Shown here one piece after another: positions 42,448 through 52,115 of a stretch of 64,000 bases of DNA. The translations under genes and the position numbers were made by a program. This DNA comes from an uncultured Coriobacteriaceae bacterium (lineage in GTDB: Bacteria > Actinomycetota > Coriobacteriia > Coriobacteriales > Atopobiaceae): the NCBI GenBank assembly GCA_902777325.1, contig CACYTH010000001.1:62001-126000 (forward strand), written 5' to 3'. Positions within the stretch are counted from its first letter, which is position 1; every line of letters starts with the position of its first letter. The notes beneath the pieces were generated by a model, which did not search any database, was not told the DNA's origin, and saw only the letters and a list, made by a program, of their open reading frames with translations.

Positions 42448-42690
42448 CTACTCCTCCTCCAGCGTCCGAATGAGCTCCATGTCCACGCTCTGCACCAAGT
42501 CGGCCAGGTCGTGACGATAGGCATCGATGGCTTGCAGCCTCTCCCCCAGCGACTCCTCGATGAGGTACATGGCCTCGTGTGCCTCGGTCGCGCGGCGGCG
42601 ATGGTACTCGAAGCGCTGCACGAGGAACGCAGTCGAGCCAATGACTAAGGCCAGGACAAAGAACAGCGCATACGTCACGAACATCAGCAT
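42448..42690 (-). CDS. Single-span membrane protein with YRHDLA motif, copy B
   Basis: This is an 80 aa protein: one membrane span at residues 4-24, then a charged helix (25-80) likely to be a coiled coil. Its YRHDLA (58-63) puts His60 in a context like the H-box of AgrC-type GHKL histidine kinases (F/Y-RHD). It aligns without gaps to the 83 aa protein at 44138-44389 (ESLGERLQAIDAYRHDLADL against VSLEERLHEMDLYRHDLAAF). The start overlaps the end of the large membrane protein before it. Acting as a detached phosphoacceptor helix is an inference. Confidence 0.75.
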   Translation of the reverse strand: MLMFVTYALFFVLALVIGSTAFLVQRFEYHRRRATEAHEAMYLIEESLGERLQAIDAYRHDLADLVQSVDMELIRTLEEE

Positions 42691-44027
42691 GCGCCCACCC
42701 CCTCCAGAAGGATCAGCGCCATGGTGCGACCGCCCTCCACTCGCTCGCGCGCGACCACCCCACTCCTGACTCCGGCCTCCCTCAGCACGCGTCGAAGCCT
42801 CAGCCTGCCCCATGAGGCCGGCAGGTCCAGGTGGATGAGCAGGCCGTCGCGCAGGGGTCGCAGTCTCAGCTCGAGCTCGGCTCCCATTGCCCCGCGCGAC
42901 AACACCGCACGCGTGACCACGTCGTCGAGCAGCGCCAGAAGCACGGGTGCCTGAGACGGCGCGTTCTTCGGCGGGGCCACCACCGAGATGTACGCGGTCG
43001 CGCCGAGCTCCCGCAGGCGGGCGGCGTGGGCGCTCAGTATCGCGTCAATGGCAACGTCCCCACAGTAGACGCCGCGGGAAATGAGCTCGTAGCGCTCGTT
43101 GAGCTGTCGGACGCGCTCTCCAAAGTCGGTCGGCACGCATCCCTCGAGGCGCAGGAGCTTCTCGTCCAGCCCCGCGAACAGCGCCTTGTCGCGTTCGATG
43201 GCGGCGAAGTCCCGCTCGATCCTCTCCTTCCAGGAGGCGGTCAGGGCCAGGCATCGCTCGGCCAGAAGCGCCTGCGCACGCGCCTCCCTGACGTTCAGGA
43301 TCAGGAGGACCCCCATGGGAAGCGAGACGACCAGGACCACCGGGTACAGCCACCAATAGAGGACGCGCATGTCGGTGACCCAGAAGTCCTTCAGCAGCGT
43401 GTAGGTGCTGATGCAGAAGGCGGCCGACACGAAAAACAGAATCATGAAATAGGAGACGCGGAAGCGCTTCGAGGCACGACGGATCATCTTGATGGCCAAG
43501 GCGATCGGCCCCTTGAGCAGGACGGCCTGCAGGGCAAAGACGGCAAGCGAGAAGAACGTGGAGGCGTGAAGCGGGGTCAGGTAGATCGTGTCAGGTGGTC
43601 GGTCGAACAGGAGCAGGCCGGCTTGATGGGAGACGCCCATGACAAGGCTCAGGGGGATGTTGGCCACGGTGAGCCACATGAAGCCCTCGAACAGGCTCAG
43701 GCCATAGATGTCCGCCACCTCCTTCGTGGCAAGCAGTGTAAAGAAGAGCGTGCGACCGATGTCGAGTGCCCTCACAAGCACAGAGTGCTCAAGTGCGGCG
43801 GGCATCAGGATGGCATCCGTGGTGAACTTGCAGACAAAGATGAGGTAGACAAGGGTCTCGCGACGCCTCGGCCTGTAGGCCTCGCGTATGCACGCCAGTG
43901 TCGCATATATGCACGACAAGCCCATGAGGTCGTAGTTGATGACGCTGCTGACGGTCTCGATCACGCGCACCCGCCTCTCGTGCGCGAGCCGGGCGGCGCT
44001 GCGGTCGGGCGGCGCCGCAATGGTCAT
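42684..44027 (-). CDS. Membrane sensor with degenerate GHKL-like domain, copy B
   Basis: This 447 aa protein has about six or seven hydrophobic spans in residues 30-275, a helical linker (275-345), then a domain that opens GVYCGDVAIDAILSAHAARLRELG, cited here in part, as in GHKL kinases just after the DHp helices. The H-box place reads IERDKAL instead of RHD. The N-box Asn is not seen (LLDDVVTRA) and no GxG box is visible, so ATP use is doubtful. The ATG at 44027 has a weak ribosome-binding site. It is paralogous in layout to 44386-45684 and lies 110 bases after the first small protein. Confidence 0.7.
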   Translation of the reverse strand: MTIAAPPDRSAARLAHERRVRVIETVSSVINYDLMGLSCIYATLACIREAYRPRRRETLVYLIFVCKFTTDAILMPAALEHSVLVRALDIGRTLFFTLLATKEVADIYGLSLFEGFMWLTVANIPLSLVMGVSHQAGLLLFDRPPDTIYLTPLHASTFFSLAVFALQAVLLKGPIALAIKMIRRASKRFRVSYFMILFFVSAAFCISTYTLLKDFWVTDMRVLYWWLYPVVLVVSLPMGVLLILNVREARAQALLAERCLALTASWKERIERDFAAIERDKALFAGLDEKLLRLEGCVPTDFGERVRQLNERYELISRGVYCGDVAIDAILSAHAARLRELGATAYISVVAPPKNAPSQAPVLLALLDDVVTRAVLSRGAMGAELELRLRPLRDGLLIHLDLPASWGRLRLRRVLREAGVRSGVVARERVEGGRTMALILLEGVGAC

Positions 44028-44137
44028 GCATGGCTCGCGTTCGCTCTGTCCAAAGTCTCGGAATAAGCTTTTAAAGCCATGGTACAGCTTCTTCTTGTGA
44101 CAACTCGAAAGCTGCAACGTGCAGTTCATCCAGGCGG

Positions 44138-44389
44138 TCAGTCCCGCGCGCGGCTCTCGGCCGCGCGCACCTCCTCGAGGTCGAGCTCCTGCAAGAACGC
44201 GGCCAGGTCGTGACGGTACAGGTCCATCTCGTGAAGTCGCTCCTCCAGCGACACCTCCAACACCTGGGAGGTCATGAGCGCCTCCTCGGTCAGACGCTCG
44301 TCCCTCTCGCGCATCTCCAGATGCCACGAGGCAAGTCCCAGGATGAGCAGCAGCACCAGAAGCATGGCGGCCTGAAGCACGTAGCTCAT
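44138..44389 (-). CDS. Single-span membrane protein with YRHDLA motif, copy A
   Basis: This is an 83 aa protein with a leucine-rich span at residues 5-22, then a charged helix. YRHDLA sits at 58-63 with His60 at the same position as in copy B. Its ATG overlaps the stop of the large sensor by 4 bases (ATGA), so the pair is translationally coupled, probably for a fixed ratio. It resembles the phosphoacceptor helix of a GHKL kinase made as a separate polypeptide. No other known family is recognised. Confidence 0.75.
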   Translation of the reverse strand: MSYVLQAAMLLVLLLILGLASWHLEMRERDERLTEEALMTSQVLEVSLEERLHEMDLYRHDLAAFLQELDLEEVRAAESRARD

Positions 44390-45684
44390 ATGACTTGCGC
44401 CTCCGTCATCACCATCACCAGCCTGCGGTCCTGCCACCTGTGCTCTCGCGCAATGGATGCGCCGTCGCGCGTATACGGCGCAAGGAAGCGGCGCACGCCG
44501 AGCGGCCCCCAGGCAGCCGGAACGTCCAGCCGCAGGAACAGCTGCTCGCCGACGCTGCGTATGCGCAGCTCCACCTCAGAGTCCCCGGCCCGCGGCGCTC
44601 GCTCGGCAGCCTCAAGGGCAAGGTTGAGCAGCGTGAGGACCATCGCCACGGGAACCGTCTCGCGCGCGCGAACGCCAGCGACCGTAAAGCTCGCCTTGAC
44701 GCCATGCCCGCGCAGGCGCGCGGCACACGAGGTGAGCACCGCGTCCAGCGCTGGCTGGTCGCAGAAGCTTCCCGCGCTGAGCCGCAGGTAGCTGCGCTCG
44801 AGGTCGGCGACGCGTGCGGCGATGGCCTTGTCGCCCGCCCCCTCGCCAAGCTCCCGAAGGGTGCGCTCGTGGCCCTCGAGTGCCACTCGGTCGCGTTCGA
44901 GGGCTTCCAGCTGCTCGTACATCATGAGGTCGTAGGAGCGAGTGAGCGCCACACAGGATGCCAGAACCTTCTCGCGCTCCTTTACGTCGCGACGATGCCG
45001 CAGCAACAGCAGGGCTATGACGAACAGCGCCAAGAGCATGAAGGGAAGGTTGTACGCAAAGCTCGACGGCACCATCAGGTCGGCGTTCACCACGGCGTTG
45101 ACGGAATTGGCATAGAAGGCAATAAAGCAGACGACTGCCCCGCCCCACAGAAGGCGCCTGCGCAGCACCACCCGACACAGGAAGCGGTTGATCCAAGTGA
45201 GCGGCTCTCTCAGCAGGTGGGCGCCGACCAGCATCATGAGAGCGCACACCAGGGTGCGCGGGGAGAAGGGCTCGAGAAAGCCCGTGTTGACGGGATTGCC
45301 CGTAAAGAGGTTGCCGAACGTGTGGGTCAGCGCCACCAGAAGGCCCGCCTCGAGGTCGCTCACCGCCGCACAGACCCCCACCTGCACGTAGTCTCCCTTG
45401 AAGGTGAAGAGGACCACGAAGAGCGAGACCACTGCCATCGCGTGCGACCATACGTTATTGAAGCCATAGAAGAAGTCGGCGTGATACCCCTGGGATATGC
45501 AGTACCACGTGTAGGCATCGACAAACCCCTTGAGCACGAAGTACGCCCAGAAGGGCAGCGATGCGCGTCGCTCGAAGACGCGAGACAGGTTGAACCAGGT
45601 GACGCTCACGCCCGCACAGGTCATGAACGTATAGCTCAGCAAGTTGCTGAGCGGGGCGGCACCCAATGCTCCCAGCGGGTTCAC
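44386..45684 (-). CDS. Membrane sensor with degenerate GHKL-like domain, copy A
   Basis: This 432 aa protein has about six or seven hydrophobic spans in residues 10-230, a helical linker (232-310) and a C-terminal domain with SFCDQPALDAVLTSCAARLRGHG (in part), the usual entry into a GHKL ATPase. The linker has ALERDRVAL where an H-box would stand. The N-box-like LLNLALEAAERA keeps the shape but has Leu for the catalytic Asn, and the glycine box is absent. It follows the LytTR regulator by about 35 bases. As a kinase it would need the small partner or another protein for its phosphoacceptor. Confidence 0.72.
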   Translation of the reverse strand: MNPLGALGAAPLSNLLSYTFMTCAGVSVTWFNLSRVFERRASLPFWAYFVLKGFVDAYTWYCISQGYHADFFYGFNNVWSHAMAVVSLFVVLFTFKGDYVQVGVCAAVSDLEAGLLVALTHTFGNLFTGNPVNTGFLEPFSPRTLVCALMMLVGAHLLREPLTWINRFLCRVVLRRRLLWGGAVVCFIAFYANSVNAVVNADLMVPSSFAYNLPFMLLALFVIALLLLRHRRDVKEREKVLASCVALTRSYDLMMYEQLEALERDRVALEGHERTLRELGEGAGDKAIAARVADLERSYLRLSAGSFCDQPALDAVLTSCAARLRGHGVKASFTVAGVRARETVPVAMVLTLLNLALEAAERAPRAGDSEVELRIRSVGEQLFLRLDVPAAWGPLGVRRFLAPYTRDGASIAREHRWQDRRLVMVMTEAQVI

Positions 45685-45718
45685 GTCCGGACCTCCCGGC
45701 AGTCAGGGACGGCGCGCT

Positions 45719-46444
45719 CTACACGACATGATCATCGGCCCAGTCGAGGTAGCGCTCGCGGAAGCCTCTCGCAAAGCGGCGGCTTATGGGAAGCTCGCTG
45801 CCGTCATCCAGCACGAGCGCGTCAGCCCGCACGAGCCGCACGTGGCTGAGGTTGACCGCAAAGCTCGCATGGCAGCGGGCGAAGTCACGCGACGGGAGGC
45901 GGTCGAGCAAGGCGGGCAGGCGGTCGGGCACCTCGTAGCTGCAGCCATCGACCGTGTTGACGGTCGTGGCGCGCCCGCGACGCTCGAGCGACAGCAGCTG
46001 CGCGCAGGGCAGGACCACCGTCTCGTGAGAGAGCGTGTTGATCATGAGCACGCGACCGTCACTGTCCATCTTCCTGTCGAGCTTCTCCATGATCTCGGGC
46101 AGGCGGTCCCCAAACTGGTCCTTGAGGACAAACCAGAGGTGCTCCGTCTCGTAGACCTCGGGCGCATAGCGCAGGAAGTTGGTCACGTAGACGATCTGGC
46201 ACCGTGGCCAGCGTCGGGACAGCGTGCGCACGAGGTCGATGCCGCTCTCGGCACCACCAAGCTCTATGTCACAGAAGAGCACGTCCGGCGCGGGCTCGCT
46301 GGCGTGCAGCAGCTCAGCTGCGCCAGTGTAGCTCGTCACCTTGAGCTCGCGTCGGACTTGCCTTCCGTACTCTGCAAGGATGCGGGTGGCCTTTTCGATC
46401 CACGAGGGCTCGTTGTCACATAGCACGGCGCGAATCGCACTCAT
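45719..46444 (-). CDS. LytTR-family response regulator
   Basis: This 241 aa protein has a receiver domain with intact residues Asp10, Glu12, Asp59 (LFCDIEL, phosphoacceptor), Thr88 (VYVTNF) and Lys108 (FVLKDQ). It is followed by a LytTR DNA-binding domain (about 130-235) with FARCHASFAVNLSHV. AgrA/ComE-type regulators of this kind are normally paired with GHKL kinases. It heads the five-gene minus-strand cluster, with the first sensor 34 bases downstream, so the two sensor modules are its likely partners. Targets are not evident; autoregulation is possible. Confidence 0.93.
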   Translation of the reverse strand: MSAIRAVLCDNEPSWIEKATRILAEYGRQVRRELKVTSYTGAAELLHASEPAPDVLFCDIELGGAESGIDLVRTLSRRWPRCQIVYVTNFLRYAPEVYETEHLWFVLKDQFGDRLPEIMEKLDRKMDSDGRVLMINTLSHETVVLPCAQLLSLERRGRATTVNTVDGCSYEVPDRLPALLDRLPSRDFARCHASFAVNLSHVRLVRADALVLDDGSELPISRRFARGFRERYLDWADDHVV

Positions 46445-48051: not shown

Positions 48052-48762
48052 TCACGCACTCATGCCGTGGATGAGCATGCTCATGATCGACGCGGAGAGC
48101 GCGTCGGGGTCCTCGCGCGCGGAGCCGGAGGCCACGGACATCGAGGTGGCAAGCAAGCCGCCGACGGAGAAGACCGCCGCCGCCTCGCAGTCCACATCCT
48201 CGCGGATGACCCCCTCAGCCTTGGCGCGCTCGAGCTGCGAGGCGATCACCCTGACGGCGCGCCTGAAGTTCTTCGCAACCGACGGCATGGACAGCTCGTT
48301 GGACCCACCAAACTGGTAGGTCATCGCCAGCGCCAGGGGCGTCCCCGTATGGAGCCTGCGGGAGAACTCGGCGTAGAGGGCATGCAGGGCGTCTCGCGCG
48401 GTCTCGGCCTTGGAGGCCAACTCCTCGATGACGTCCACCAGCTCGGAGGTCGACTCGTCGAAGATGGCGGCAATGAGCTCGTCCTTGTCCGCAAAGTAGT
48501 AGTAGAGCGAGCCCTTGGACAGCTGGCAGCGCTCCGCCACCTCGCTCATCTGGAAGTTGGTGTTGCCGCGCTCTGCCATGAGCTCGCTCGCAGCGTGCAT
48601 GATGCGCTCTTTGGTGCGCATGCTCTTGCGGGTCTTCGAAGAAGAGCGTATGCGCTCGCGGCTGCGCGAAATCTGCTTCCCCACAAGCTCGTGCGCCGCG
48701 CTCCGCGCAGCCCTGACCTCGCCCACCAGCTCTGAGGCTCGCTCGTCATTCAAAAGCGACAT
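48052..48762 (-). CDS. TetR-family transcriptional regulator
   Basis: This 236 aa repressor-type protein has a TetR helix-turn-helix at about residues 50-95: IMHAASELMAERG then MSEVAERCQLSKGSLYYYFADKDEL, cited in part. The first 48 residues are an unusual basic, serine/arginine-rich extension. The ATG at 48762 follows GAGGAG by 7 bases. It lies downstream of the YhgE/ABC pair on the same strand, and such regulators often control that export pair; the AT-rich palindrome at 52951-52968 is one possible target. Confidence 0.88.
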   Translation of the reverse strand: MSLLNDERASELVGEVRAARSAAHELVGKQISRSRERIRSSSKTRKSMRTKERIMHAASELMAERGNTNFQMSEVAERCQLSKGSLYYYFADKDELIAAIFDESTSELVDVIEELASKAETARDALHALYAEFSRRLHTGTPLALAMTYQFGGSNELSMPSVAKNFRRAVRVIASQLERAKAEGVIREDVDCEAAAVFSVGGLLATSMSVASGSAREDPDALSASIMSMLIHGMSA

Positions 48763-48853
48763 GGCATTGCTCCTCATACGTCCTCTTTCCTCTCATCGTA
48801 GCATCCCCCGCATGCCAGCGCGCATCGGCGTCTGGCGAGCGCACCACATGAAG

Positions 48854-48886
48854 GCCGCCTCGCAGGCCAAAAGCCTGCGAGGCGGC
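48854..48886 (-). terminator. Terminator-like hairpin after the YhgE gene
   Basis: A 14-bp perfect stem (GCCGCCTCGCAGGC and its complement) with a 5-base loop starts 25 bases past the YhgE stop. The following minus-strand bases are only weakly T-rich. Confidence 0.55.
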
Positions 48887-48911
48887 AGCAACCTTCCTAT
48901 CTACGCAAGAC

Positions 48912-51900
48912 CTACAGGTTGACCAGCGGATGGAGGTCCATCATGGTCACGGTGCGCTTGCGACGCGCCACCAGGCAGGTCAGGCCGTAGGAGATGACAA
49001 AGAAGCCGAGCAGCGCGGCCACCGACGGGCCAATCAGCGAGAGATCGTTGCCTGCCATGGCCTGGCGCAGCGCCTTGACCACGTAGGTCATGGGCAAATA
49101 CGGGCTCAGGGCCTGGAAGATGGGGAGCTCGGTCTCGATGGGGAAGGTGCCGGCTGCAGTGGTGAGCTGGAGCATGAGCAGCACGACCGAGACGAACTTG
49201 CCCGGGAAGCCGAACAGCGCCGCGATCGCCTGCACCATCGCGCAGAACACGAAGCTCGCCAGTATGATGAGCAGGTAGTAGGCCAACGGATGCGCCACGG
49301 CGATGCCGCAGGGGAACTGGATGGTAAAGCCCAGCAGCAGCGACTGGATGGCGCCCACGATGAGCCACGGGGCCAGGCCAGCAAAGGCTGCGATGGCCGG
49401 GTGGGCACCGCTCATGACCAAGCGCTGGTTGAGGGGCTTGAACAGGAAGGTCATGACCAGGGCGCCAACCCACAGGCCCAGTGCGATGAAGTACGGCGCG
49501 AAGCCCGAGCCATAGTTGTCGACAGTGGTGTACTTGACCTGCTCAAGGGTCACCGGCTCGCTCATCATAGCTGCGCGCTTGTCGGAGCCAGACGTTGCGT
49601 CGCTGACCTTCTCCACGCCGTCAGCCAGGCCGTCGGCGAGCTCGCCCGAGCCGTCCTGTGCCTTGGCCAGGCCGTCAGTAAGCTCCTGTGAGCCATCGTG
49701 CAGCTTGCCCAGGCCATCGGTGAGGTCGGAGGAGCCGGACTCAGCGGCGACAAGGCCGTCGGTGAGGGTACCTGAGCCCGCCTCCAGCTTGTCCAGGCCA
49801 CTCGCAAGAGCCGCGGAACCCGTCTTGGCGGTAGCGAGACCATTTGTCAATGTGTTGGAACCGGCATAGAGCGTGCCCAGGGCAGCCTTGAGGGCGGCAG
49901 ACCCACCCTTGGCAGTCCCGAGACCCTTGGTGAGCGTCTGAGAGCCGCCATGGAGCAACGCGAGCCCGTCGGACAGGGAGGCCGAGCCCGCCTTTGCCTT
50001 GGCGGCGCCCACGGCCAGCTCGCCCATGCCCGCTGCGAGGGTCTTGGCGCCATCGGAGGCCACGCCCGCGCCGGTGGCAAGGTTGGAGCTGCCCTGGGCC
50101 AATGCGCAGACGCCGCCATAGATGGTCTGGTCGTTTGCGACCGTGAGGGAGTTGACCAGCTCGGAGGTGCCCGCCTTGAGCGTAGGCAGCTGCTTCATCT
50201 CCTGCTCGCTGGGCAGCATTCCCTGGGCGCTCTCGAGCGTCGTTCCGGCCGTGTTCAGCACCTCGCCCGCCTGGCTCAGCAGGCCATCGATGCCAGACTC
50301 CACCTGCGGCATTGCCTTCTGGATGGTGGCAAGGTCCTTGAGGAGCGCCTTCACGTCATCGCTTTCGGTGAGTGCGGCGACTCCCTTGAGCGTGGTTCCC
50401 ACGCCCTCGAGGCTCGCGGCGCCTGACTGCAGATTGCCTGCGGCACTCTGCACGTCCGCGCCCGCCTGGACCACCGAGGGGCTGGCCGTTGACAGGTCAC
50501 TCCCTGCCGCCTGAGCCGCACCTGCCGAGGCCGCCGCGCTTTCCTTTGCATCCTCGATCGCGTCTACCAAGGCGTCGAGATCCTCCTTGGTCACGGTCTC
50601 GGGATCGAGCGAGCTTGCCTTCTTCTTTGCGGCATCAAGCTTGCTGCAGGCGGCTCCTGCCTCAGAGGCAGCGGTGGCGACGTTGGAACCGGCACTCTCA
50701 AGACTCGTCTTCGCACCAGAGAGGCTGGTGCCCGCGGCGGCAAGGTCGCTGCCTGTACCCTCGAGCGACTGCTTCACCGAAGCCATGCCCGACTCCACCG
50801 CAGACGGCAGCCCGGAGATCTGCTTTTGGACGGCCGCGGCATGGTCCTTCGCGTCATTGCCCACTTCGACGAGGCCATTTGCCTGTTTGACCAGGGCATC
50901 CTTCTGTGCGCTGATGCTCTTGAGGTCCTGTGAGACCTCGCCGAGCCCTCCGTGCAGCGCGGAGATCTGATCCTCCATGCCCGTCATCTTGTCAACCAGC
51001 GCGCCAACGCCCGCATCCAGCATGGCGAGCTGAACCTGCTTCTTCTCGATTTCGCCCTTGAGCCTATTGGCACCAGCCGCAAGCTGATCGCTCCCGTCCT
51101 TAAGCTGGTCCACGCCATGGCTGACCTGGTCTGCGCCGGCCTTGCCCTTCTCGAGTCCATCCGCCAGATCCGCAAGGCCCCGGTCGAGCTCACCTGAGCC
51201 AGCCGCCGCATTGCCAAGCCCATTGGTGATGGTCGCCGAGCCGTTCTGGGCACTGGCCAGGCCATCATCGAGCTGCGAGGCGCCATCGGCCGTGGCTGCA
51301 AGACCATCGGTGATCTTCTGCGAGCCGTCGGCGGCATCCACCGTACCGTCAGCCAACTGGTGTGCACCGTCCCGTGCGCTCGCGAGGCCGTCGGTTATGG
51401 CCTGGGAGCCATCGTGGGCGTCGGTGAGGCCGTTGTGCAGGGTGGCCGACCCATCCTTTGCGGTCAGCAGGTTGTCGGTGATGGTCTGCGAGCCGTCACG
51501 AGCGTCGGTGAGGCCGTCAGCCAGCTCGCTCGCACCGTCAGAGGCAGCCTGCAGCTGCTCACCCGTGTCGGAGATCTGGTCAAAGATCTGCACGTAGTAG
51601 TTCTCTCCGATGGCATAGTTGGTCTCGCTCGTCACCACGCGCATGACCGAGGCGCCCAGGATGGACGAGAGGTAGTTGTTGGCGTCATTGACCTTAAGCT
51701 CCAGATGCGCCTTCTGGGGGTCGTCGGAGTCTGCCGAGGCAACCTTCTCAGAGAAGTCGGCGGGGATGGTCACCACATTGTAGTAGGTGCCCTTCTCCAG
51801 GCCCTCCTGCGCCTCCTCGGCGCTGTCCACGAAGCGCCAGTCGAGCGCGTCAGAGTCCTCGAGCTCGTCAACCAGGTCGTCGCCCGCATGCACGAGGGTG

Positions 51901-52115
51901 CCATCCTCGGTCTTAACAGGCACGTCTTCGTTGACCACGGCAACCGGGAGCGTGTCGAGCTTGCCATAGGGGTCATAGAACGCCATGAGGTAAAGCGCCC
52001 CATAGATGAGCGGGATGAGCGAGATGCCAAGCATGGCTATCTTCATGCCCGTGCTGGAACGCGCCGCCTGAAAGTCGAGCAGCGAGAAGCGCAGGCCACG
52101 GAACGGATTCTTCAT
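48912..52115 (-). CDS. YhgE/Pip family membrane protein with long repeat region
   Basis: This 1067 aa protein has one N-terminal span (residues 25-46), a large extracellular region, and about five C-terminal spans (near 885-1050) forming an ABC-2-like membrane domain. The stalk holds dozens of 7- and 14-residue repeats of the form DGSxxLxxGL (for example DGSQTITDNLLTA, AGSGTLTDGL), likely coiled or beta-helical. YhgE/Pip proteins are known as phage-infection proteins and in ESX-like or envelope roles. It is 5 bases from the ATPase gene, so the two form a probable exporter. Confidence 0.9.
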   Translation of the reverse strand: MKNPFRGLRFSLLDFQAARSSTGMKIAMLGISLIPLIYGALYLMAFYDPYGKLDTLPVAVVNEDVPVKTEDGTLVHAGDDLVDELEDSDALDWRFVDSAEEAQEGLEKGTYYNVVTIPADFSEKVASADSDDPQKAHLELKVNDANNYLSSILGASVMRVVTSETNYAIGENYYVQIFDQISDTGEQLQAASDGASELADGLTDARDGSQTITDNLLTAKDGSATLHNGLTDAHDGSQAITDGLASARDGAHQLADGTVDAADGSQKITDGLAATADGASQLDDGLASAQNGSATITNGLGNAAAGSGELDRGLADLADGLEKGKAGADQVSHGVDQLKDGSDQLAAGANRLKGEIEKKQVQLAMLDAGVGALVDKMTGMEDQISALHGGLGEVSQDLKSISAQKDALVKQANGLVEVGNDAKDHAAAVQKQISGLPSAVESGMASVKQSLEGTGSDLAAAGTSLSGAKTSLESAGSNVATAASEAGAACSKLDAAKKKASSLDPETVTKEDLDALVDAIEDAKESAAASAGAAQAAGSDLSTASPSVVQAGADVQSAAGNLQSGAASLEGVGTTLKGVAALTESDDVKALLKDLATIQKAMPQVESGIDGLLSQAGEVLNTAGTTLESAQGMLPSEQEMKQLPTLKAGTSELVNSLTVANDQTIYGGVCALAQGSSNLATGAGVASDGAKTLAAGMGELAVGAAKAKAGSASLSDGLALLHGGSQTLTKGLGTAKGGSAALKAALGTLYAGSNTLTNGLATAKTGSAALASGLDKLEAGSGTLTDGLVAAESGSSDLTDGLGKLHDGSQELTDGLAKAQDGSGELADGLADGVEKVSDATSGSDKRAAMMSEPVTLEQVKYTTVDNYGSGFAPYFIALGLWVGALVMTFLFKPLNQRLVMSGAHPAIAAFAGLAPWLIVGAIQSLLLGFTIQFPCGIAVAHPLAYYLLIILASFVFCAMVQAIAALFGFPGKFVSVVLLMLQLTTAAGTFPIETELPIFQALSPYLPMTYVVKALRQAMAGNDLSLIGPSVAALLGFFVISYGLTCLVARRKRTVTMMDLHPLVNL

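Follow-up and report, generated by a model that had tools for sequence, protein, structure and literature searches.

Receptor pseudokinases paired with putative detached H-box helices in a LytTR regulator locus of an uncultured Coriobacteriaceae bacterium

Can the phosphoacceptor histidine of a GHKL histidine kinase and its ATPase part reside on two separate membrane proteins? The question is raised by five genes at positions 42448-46444 of a 64,000-nucleotide stretch of DNA (the window) from an uncultured Coriobacteriaceae bacterium of the gut, placed by GTDB in Atopobiaceae (GCA_902777325.1, CACYTH010000001.1, positions 62,001-126,000 of the forward strand). In order along the minus strand they encode a LytTR response regulator (RR), a large membrane protein (K1), a small one (S1), and a second large and small protein (K2 and S2; Table 1). 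The K1 and S1 genes overlap by 4 bases (ATGA) and those of K2 and S2 by 7, with K and S reading frames differing by -1. The initial annotation took each pair for a split histidine kinase, with K as the catalytic half and S as carrier of the phosphoacceptor. Its account of the five genes, their order and overlaps stands, except at the start of K2: this had been read from an in-frame ATG at 44027 (42684-44027, 447 residues), but the best relative aligns only from residue 22 on, and we therefore place the start at the GTG at 43964 (426 residues). Neither K nor S has a significant match in Pfam or NCBIfam, so that standard annotation overlooks the system.

K is a receptor pseudokinase, having the fold of a kinase without the residues for autokinase activity, and is not a catalytic half. 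As noticed at the outset, K1 reads ALERDRVAL and K2 reads IERDKAL at the H-box position. A joint alignment of 17 K homologues, 8 full-length S proteins (see below) and 6 canonical GHKL kinases showed that no K homologue has a phosphoacceptor histidine there (0/17), or an N-box asparagine at either position (0/17); the G-box is likewise absent from all 17, the only exception being one aligned glycine in G133b, and the ATP-lid segment is deleted. The H-box histidine, N-box asparagine and G-box are all kept in 8/8 full-length S proteins and 6/6 canonical kinases. In the ten K proteins that are paired with a full-length S (L088, L089, L090, L091, L092, L123, L124), the second N-box asparagine is replaced in every case by tryptophan, as though to plug the ATP pocket.

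The AlphaFold2 (AF2) model of K1 (pLDDT 77.7, pTM 0.49) comprises membrane helices, a long coiled-coil helix and a C-terminal domain at residues 307-430 whose best structural match is the kinase module of Staphylococcus aureus AgrC (6e95), over 117 residues (VIA Z 13.6, root-mean-square deviation 2.6). The model thus indicates that the HATPase (catalytic and ATP-binding, CA) fold, of the AgrC ATPase-domain type, is retained at the C-terminus of K. A K profile matched GHKL kinases at 96% probability and was also related to full-length S. Pfam ATPase models gave no match in K, and a PDB sequence search with the K profile returned nothing credible. No further K homologues beyond Coriobacteriales were found in a 396-genome sample of the phylum; a match to G229 in that sample was discarded because it overlaps a type-B kinase (defined below).

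The small proteins S1 and S2 both carry YRHDLA with the histidine at position 60, as first reported. S corresponds to the membrane span and H-box helix of a GHKL kinase: the chain stops at residue 80-83, without an ATPase domain, and S1 is predicted to form a single continuous helix (residues 2-82, pLDDT 92). His60 is present in all 15 S homologues compared, 7/7 truncated like those of the window and 8/8 full-length. R59, H60, Q67 and R75 are common to all seven truncated proteins, and of these Q67 and R75 (7/7) lie in a conserved tail that is new and peculiar to the truncated form. Six-frame examination of the genus's loci found no ATPase remnant.

By a simple Nei-Gojobori count, nonsynonymous (dN) and synonymous (dS) divergence from the G139 orthologue is about 0.16 and 0.87 for S2, and about 0.17 and 0.70 for K2, whose product is 73% identical to that orthologue. 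The resulting dN/dS of about 0.2 points to purifying selection on both, and hence to two maintained proteins. K1 and K2 are themselves paralogues (27% identity, E value 4.5e-26), and a search of other genomes found K-S pairs elsewhere in the genus in three genomes at four loci (G137, G133 with two, and G139). Taken together, the recurrence of the pair, the homology of K1 to K2 and the low dN/dS indicate that the arrangement is more than chance. The regulator that heads the cluster, already described as intact, scores above the Pfam cut-offs, with 55.4 bits for LytTR and 33.8 bits for Response_reg, and has retained all its phosphorylation residues: D10, D59, T88 and K108 are invariant in 11/11 orthologues. 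RR is a LytTR response regulator, with a receiver domain bearing the phospho-accepting aspartate and a LytTR domain.

Where, then, is the ATPase? Searches with an S profile uncovered longer S homologues, each adjoining a K homologue, in G245, G324, G337, G338 and G339, and there are two more RR-K-S loci with full-length S in the metagenome-assembled genome (MAG) RGIG4357; RR orthologues accompany these loci wherever the contig extends far enough. The relatives with full-length S belong to a second family, of Eggerthellaceae-type bacteria. Their S proteins (227-281 residues) have one membrane helix, an H-box reading YRHDA and a GHKL ATPase that is intact (QNLLDNAYEA, HGVGL) and scores 34.7-56.7 bits against HATPase_c_5 (Pfam cut-off 22); the best PDB match is S. 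aureus AgrC (E value 1.5e-05). Truncated and full-length S profiles match over 74 columns at 98%, with H60 on H60, and the first 74 positions of the two forms align residue for residue. Weak S matches in G233, G234, G303, G317 and others (ATP-synthase-type, two transmembrane helices; E value >1e-4) were set aside as chance coiled-coil matches. In two loci of the full-length type (L089:184-3509 and L088:8240-11538), K-S-K triplets place two receptor pseudokinases on either side of one complete single-span kinase, an arrangement that suggests two inputs feeding one kinase.

In a tree of K proteins, loci with full-length and truncated S fall on opposite sides of one branch (support 100/100). The tree is unrooted, so the direction of change has to be inferred; because kinases are normally complete, the simpler reading is that S lost its ATPase in the genus of the window, for which the tree requires a single event. 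K-S is thus a pseudokinase receptor with a truncated kinase; the two proteins are not the complementary halves of one divided kinase. This bears on the split-kinase proposal, in which K gives catalysis and S the phosphoacceptor. The pairing of K with S, the AgrC-like ATPase fold in K and the histidine on S speak for such a split, as do the functional splits known in CheA3/CheA4 (PMC3591291) and the complementary pairs from the same order described below. But nucleotide-binding motifs are absent from K in 17/17 homologues, and in relatives the ATPase stays on S, not K. We therefore regard it as very improbable. What survives of the proposal is a conserved H-box on a separate, small, kinase-homologous membrane protein; the large protein as catalytic half does not, because K lacks the catalytic residues and the catalytic half lies on S in the relatives and nowhere in the window locus.

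In the ancestral form, K would have sensed a signal and controlled the minimal kinase S, which would have phosphorylated RR. The locus in the window appears, from its gene content, to be without an ATP-using kinase, so that the K-S pair would most likely dock RR and control its dephosphorylation or release. We would give roughly even chances to the operon being a two-component system in which K is a pseudokinase receptor, S is a kinase reduced to a membrane helix and an H-box helix, and RR is charged elsewhere. K and S would associate through their membrane and coiled-coil helices into a bundle resembling a dimerization and histidine phosphotransfer (DHp) domain, and the H-box face of S would dock the LytTR regulator. 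RR may be charged by acetyl phosphate or by a non-cognate kinase; the output of K-S would be ligand-gated docking, dephosphorylation, or sequestration and release of RR; and His60 may take part in docking or dephosphorylation, or receive phosphate from RR. Acetyl phosphate should be available, since the genome encodes acetate kinase and phosphotransacetylase. In S. aureus, acetyl phosphate charges the LytTR regulator LytR faster than the kinase LytS does, and LytS also dephosphorylates LytR (PMC4830213). Somewhat more tentatively, the locus may represent a kinase-less two-component system, in which pseudokinase and detached H-box helix jointly build a DHp-like platform; this would set the phosphorylation of a LytTR regulator that lacks any dedicated ATP-using partner. 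Such a system would derive from an ancestral pair of receptor pseudokinase and minimal single-span kinase, still present in Eggerthellaceae-type bacteria.

The invariance of His60 in S and of Asp59 in RR would also suit a phosphorelay, in which His60 is phosphorylated by a different histidine kinase in the cell, the phosphoryl group then moves from S to RR, and K gates access. Phosphotransferases of the Spo0B and ChpT types are precedents, and the genome encodes about 16 HATPase_c proteins, one of which, at C15, is a complete GHKL kinase whose H-box reads CHD. Yet no dedicated kinase lies in the locus, the C15 kinase has a LytTR partner of its own, and no histidine-less ATPase protein of type B was found in this genome; we consider a relay possible but rather unlikely. 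Two small HATPase_c frames (163 and 189 residues, at C30) were considered as soluble ATPase partners and set aside: they lie side by side in relatives too and resemble anti-sigma-type proteins.

Other loci of the genus are incomplete: G064 has S without K, G124 has K without S, and in G127 and G132 K is broken or cut. An S of G124 hidden by an assembly gap was ruled out, since the frame that starts at the overlapping ATG in that genome has just 9 codons. Relatives with names are uncultured Atopobiaceae or Coriobacteriaceae MAGs, their stated sources mostly ruminants. The broken or missing members in these four genomes, and the genus-wide loss of the ATPase, would fit a degenerating system whose role in phospho-signalling is gone. 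This seems improbable given the dN/dS of about 0.2, the invariant H60, Q67 and R75, the intact RR, the coupled gene overlaps and the retention of the pair in six loci. Several points nevertheless weigh against a K-S platform that controls RR. Its patchiness in the genus (G127, G132, G124, G064) means that part of the system may be decaying. In G137, D61 of S is replaced by serine (YRHS for YRHD), a change expected to weaken the chemistry of a kinase or phosphatase. Contacts of K with S, and of S with RR, are deduced from homology and from the way the genes are paired; His60 could be phosphorylated in trans by another kinase; and K may have a non-canonical nucleotide site, given how little of the motif remains.

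Genuinely complementary halves may exist nearby. We defined type A as a multi-span sensor that ends 43-54 residues beyond the point where an RHDLANQ-type H-box begins, without an ATPase, and type B as a protein with two membrane spans, no histidine at the H-box position, and intact NLIDNA and HGWG. Adjacent A/B loci with all these features number 18, in 17 genomes from two Coriobacteriales families, and their genes mostly overlap (Table 1). These pairs make better candidates for a split-kinase mechanism than K and S of the window do. Occurrences in a Eubacteriales MAG (L131) and a Lachnospiraceae MAG (L130) show that the layout extends past Coriobacteriales. The B-like proteins of L213, L214, L215, L220 and L223 fall outside the N-box and G-box patterns used, and may represent a further pseudokinase layer or mere divergence.

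The cluster in the window is flanked by metK and a gene for an SKI2-like helicase. The same combination of metK, cluster and helicase occurs in G132 and at the second of the G133 copies; in G139 the helicase adjoins S. At the metK-helicase site of G132 (L028:4210-6581), RR is kept, but only some 130 K-like residues remain before K breaks off; an open reading frame of 637 codons resembling a secreted or surface protein comes next. Elsewhere in the window (48052-52115), a gene for a TetR-like regulator lies upstream of one for a 1067-residue repeat-rich membrane protein, YhgE/Pip-like by eye.

Table 1. Coordinates of the window locus and of complementary A/B loci in other genomes
Feature	Coordinates	Strand	Basis or remarks
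RR, LytTR response regulator, 241 residues	45719..46444	-	Pfam Response_reg and LytTR matches; phospho-acceptor Asp59 at 46268-46270
K1, multi-span membrane receptor with degenerate GHKL transmitter at C-terminus (pseudokinase), 432 residues	44386..45684	-	AF2 model, profile match, lost catalytic positions
K1 residues 307-430, ATPase-like domain lacking lid, G-box and N-box Asn	44395..44766	-	Structural match and joint alignment
S1, single-span, 83 residues; transmembrane helix, signalling helix, YRHDLA H-box and conserved tail, without ATPase domain	44138..44389	-	His60 codon 44210-44212
K2, second receptor pseudokinase, 426 residues from GTG start	42684..43964	-	Homologue alignment and catalytic-residue alignment
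S2, single-span, 80 residues, YRHDLA H-box	42448..42690	-	His60 codon 42511-42513; dN 0.16, dS 0.87 versus G139 orthologue
A/B pair L106	78-980 and 973-1869	+	Complementary split criteria
A/B pair L107	60-974 and 967-1824	+	Complementary split criteria
A/B pair L103	2348-3238 and 1471-2355	-	Complementary split criteria
A/B pair L110	1911-2822 and 859-1908	+	Complementary split criteria
A/B loci L206-L209, L217, L218, L221, L222, L224, L225, L227, L228			Complementary split criteria
RR, A and B in one operon, second family	L093:2365-5005; L094:3843-6483		
A-RR-B order, NHD H-box, Eubacteriales MAG	L131:7108-9580		
Near-identical RR-B, Lachnospiraceae MAG	L130:5462-6298		

These loci show receptor and transmitter distributed to different proteins within one two-component family. 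Receptor pseudokinase with minimal kinase, receptor pseudokinase with bare H-box helix and, from elsewhere in Coriobacteriales, complementary A/B split kinases make up a natural series for asking which parts of a kinase a sensor needs, and whether a lone H-box helix can control a regulator. In open-licence papers on split or pseudo GHKL/LytTR kinases and on Coriobacteriia, we found no description of this layout.

The closest relationship is to AgrC/AgrA (GHKL kinase of the HPK10 group with a LytTR regulator), with which the locus shares a multi-span receptor, coiled coil and ATPase-domain fold in K, an RHD H-box in S and a LytTR regulator. Unlike in AgrC, the receptor and the H-box belong to two proteins, the histidine, N-box, lid and G-box are missing from K, and S of the window lacks an ATPase. 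In Mycobacterium tuberculosis HK1/HK2/TcrA (Rv0600c-Rv0602c), the ATP-binding and phosphoacceptor parts are encoded by neighbouring genes that are not of the GHKL/LytTR type; HK1 reportedly binds ATP. CheA3/CheA4 of Rhodobacter sphaeroides likewise separate the phosphoacceptor from the remainder of the kinase, but the ATPase (P4 domain) of CheA4 works, as that of K does not, and these are soluble chemotaxis kinases as opposed to membrane GHKL proteins (PMC3591291). Synechocystis Hik36-Hik43 similarly use two genes for a kinase, with the phosphotransfer histidine on one, but are of the CheA/histidine phosphotransfer (HPt) type, and Hik43 has an annotated CA domain (PMC7656254). Caulobacter DivL, like K, is a kinase fold free of catalysis; its role as a partner is sensory or regulatory, and its DHp interface is where a response regulator binds. 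Unlike the K-S pair, DivL is one protein with tyrosine at the histidine position, binds a nucleotide analogue weakly, and regulates CckA, a distinct kinase that is active (PMC4211667).

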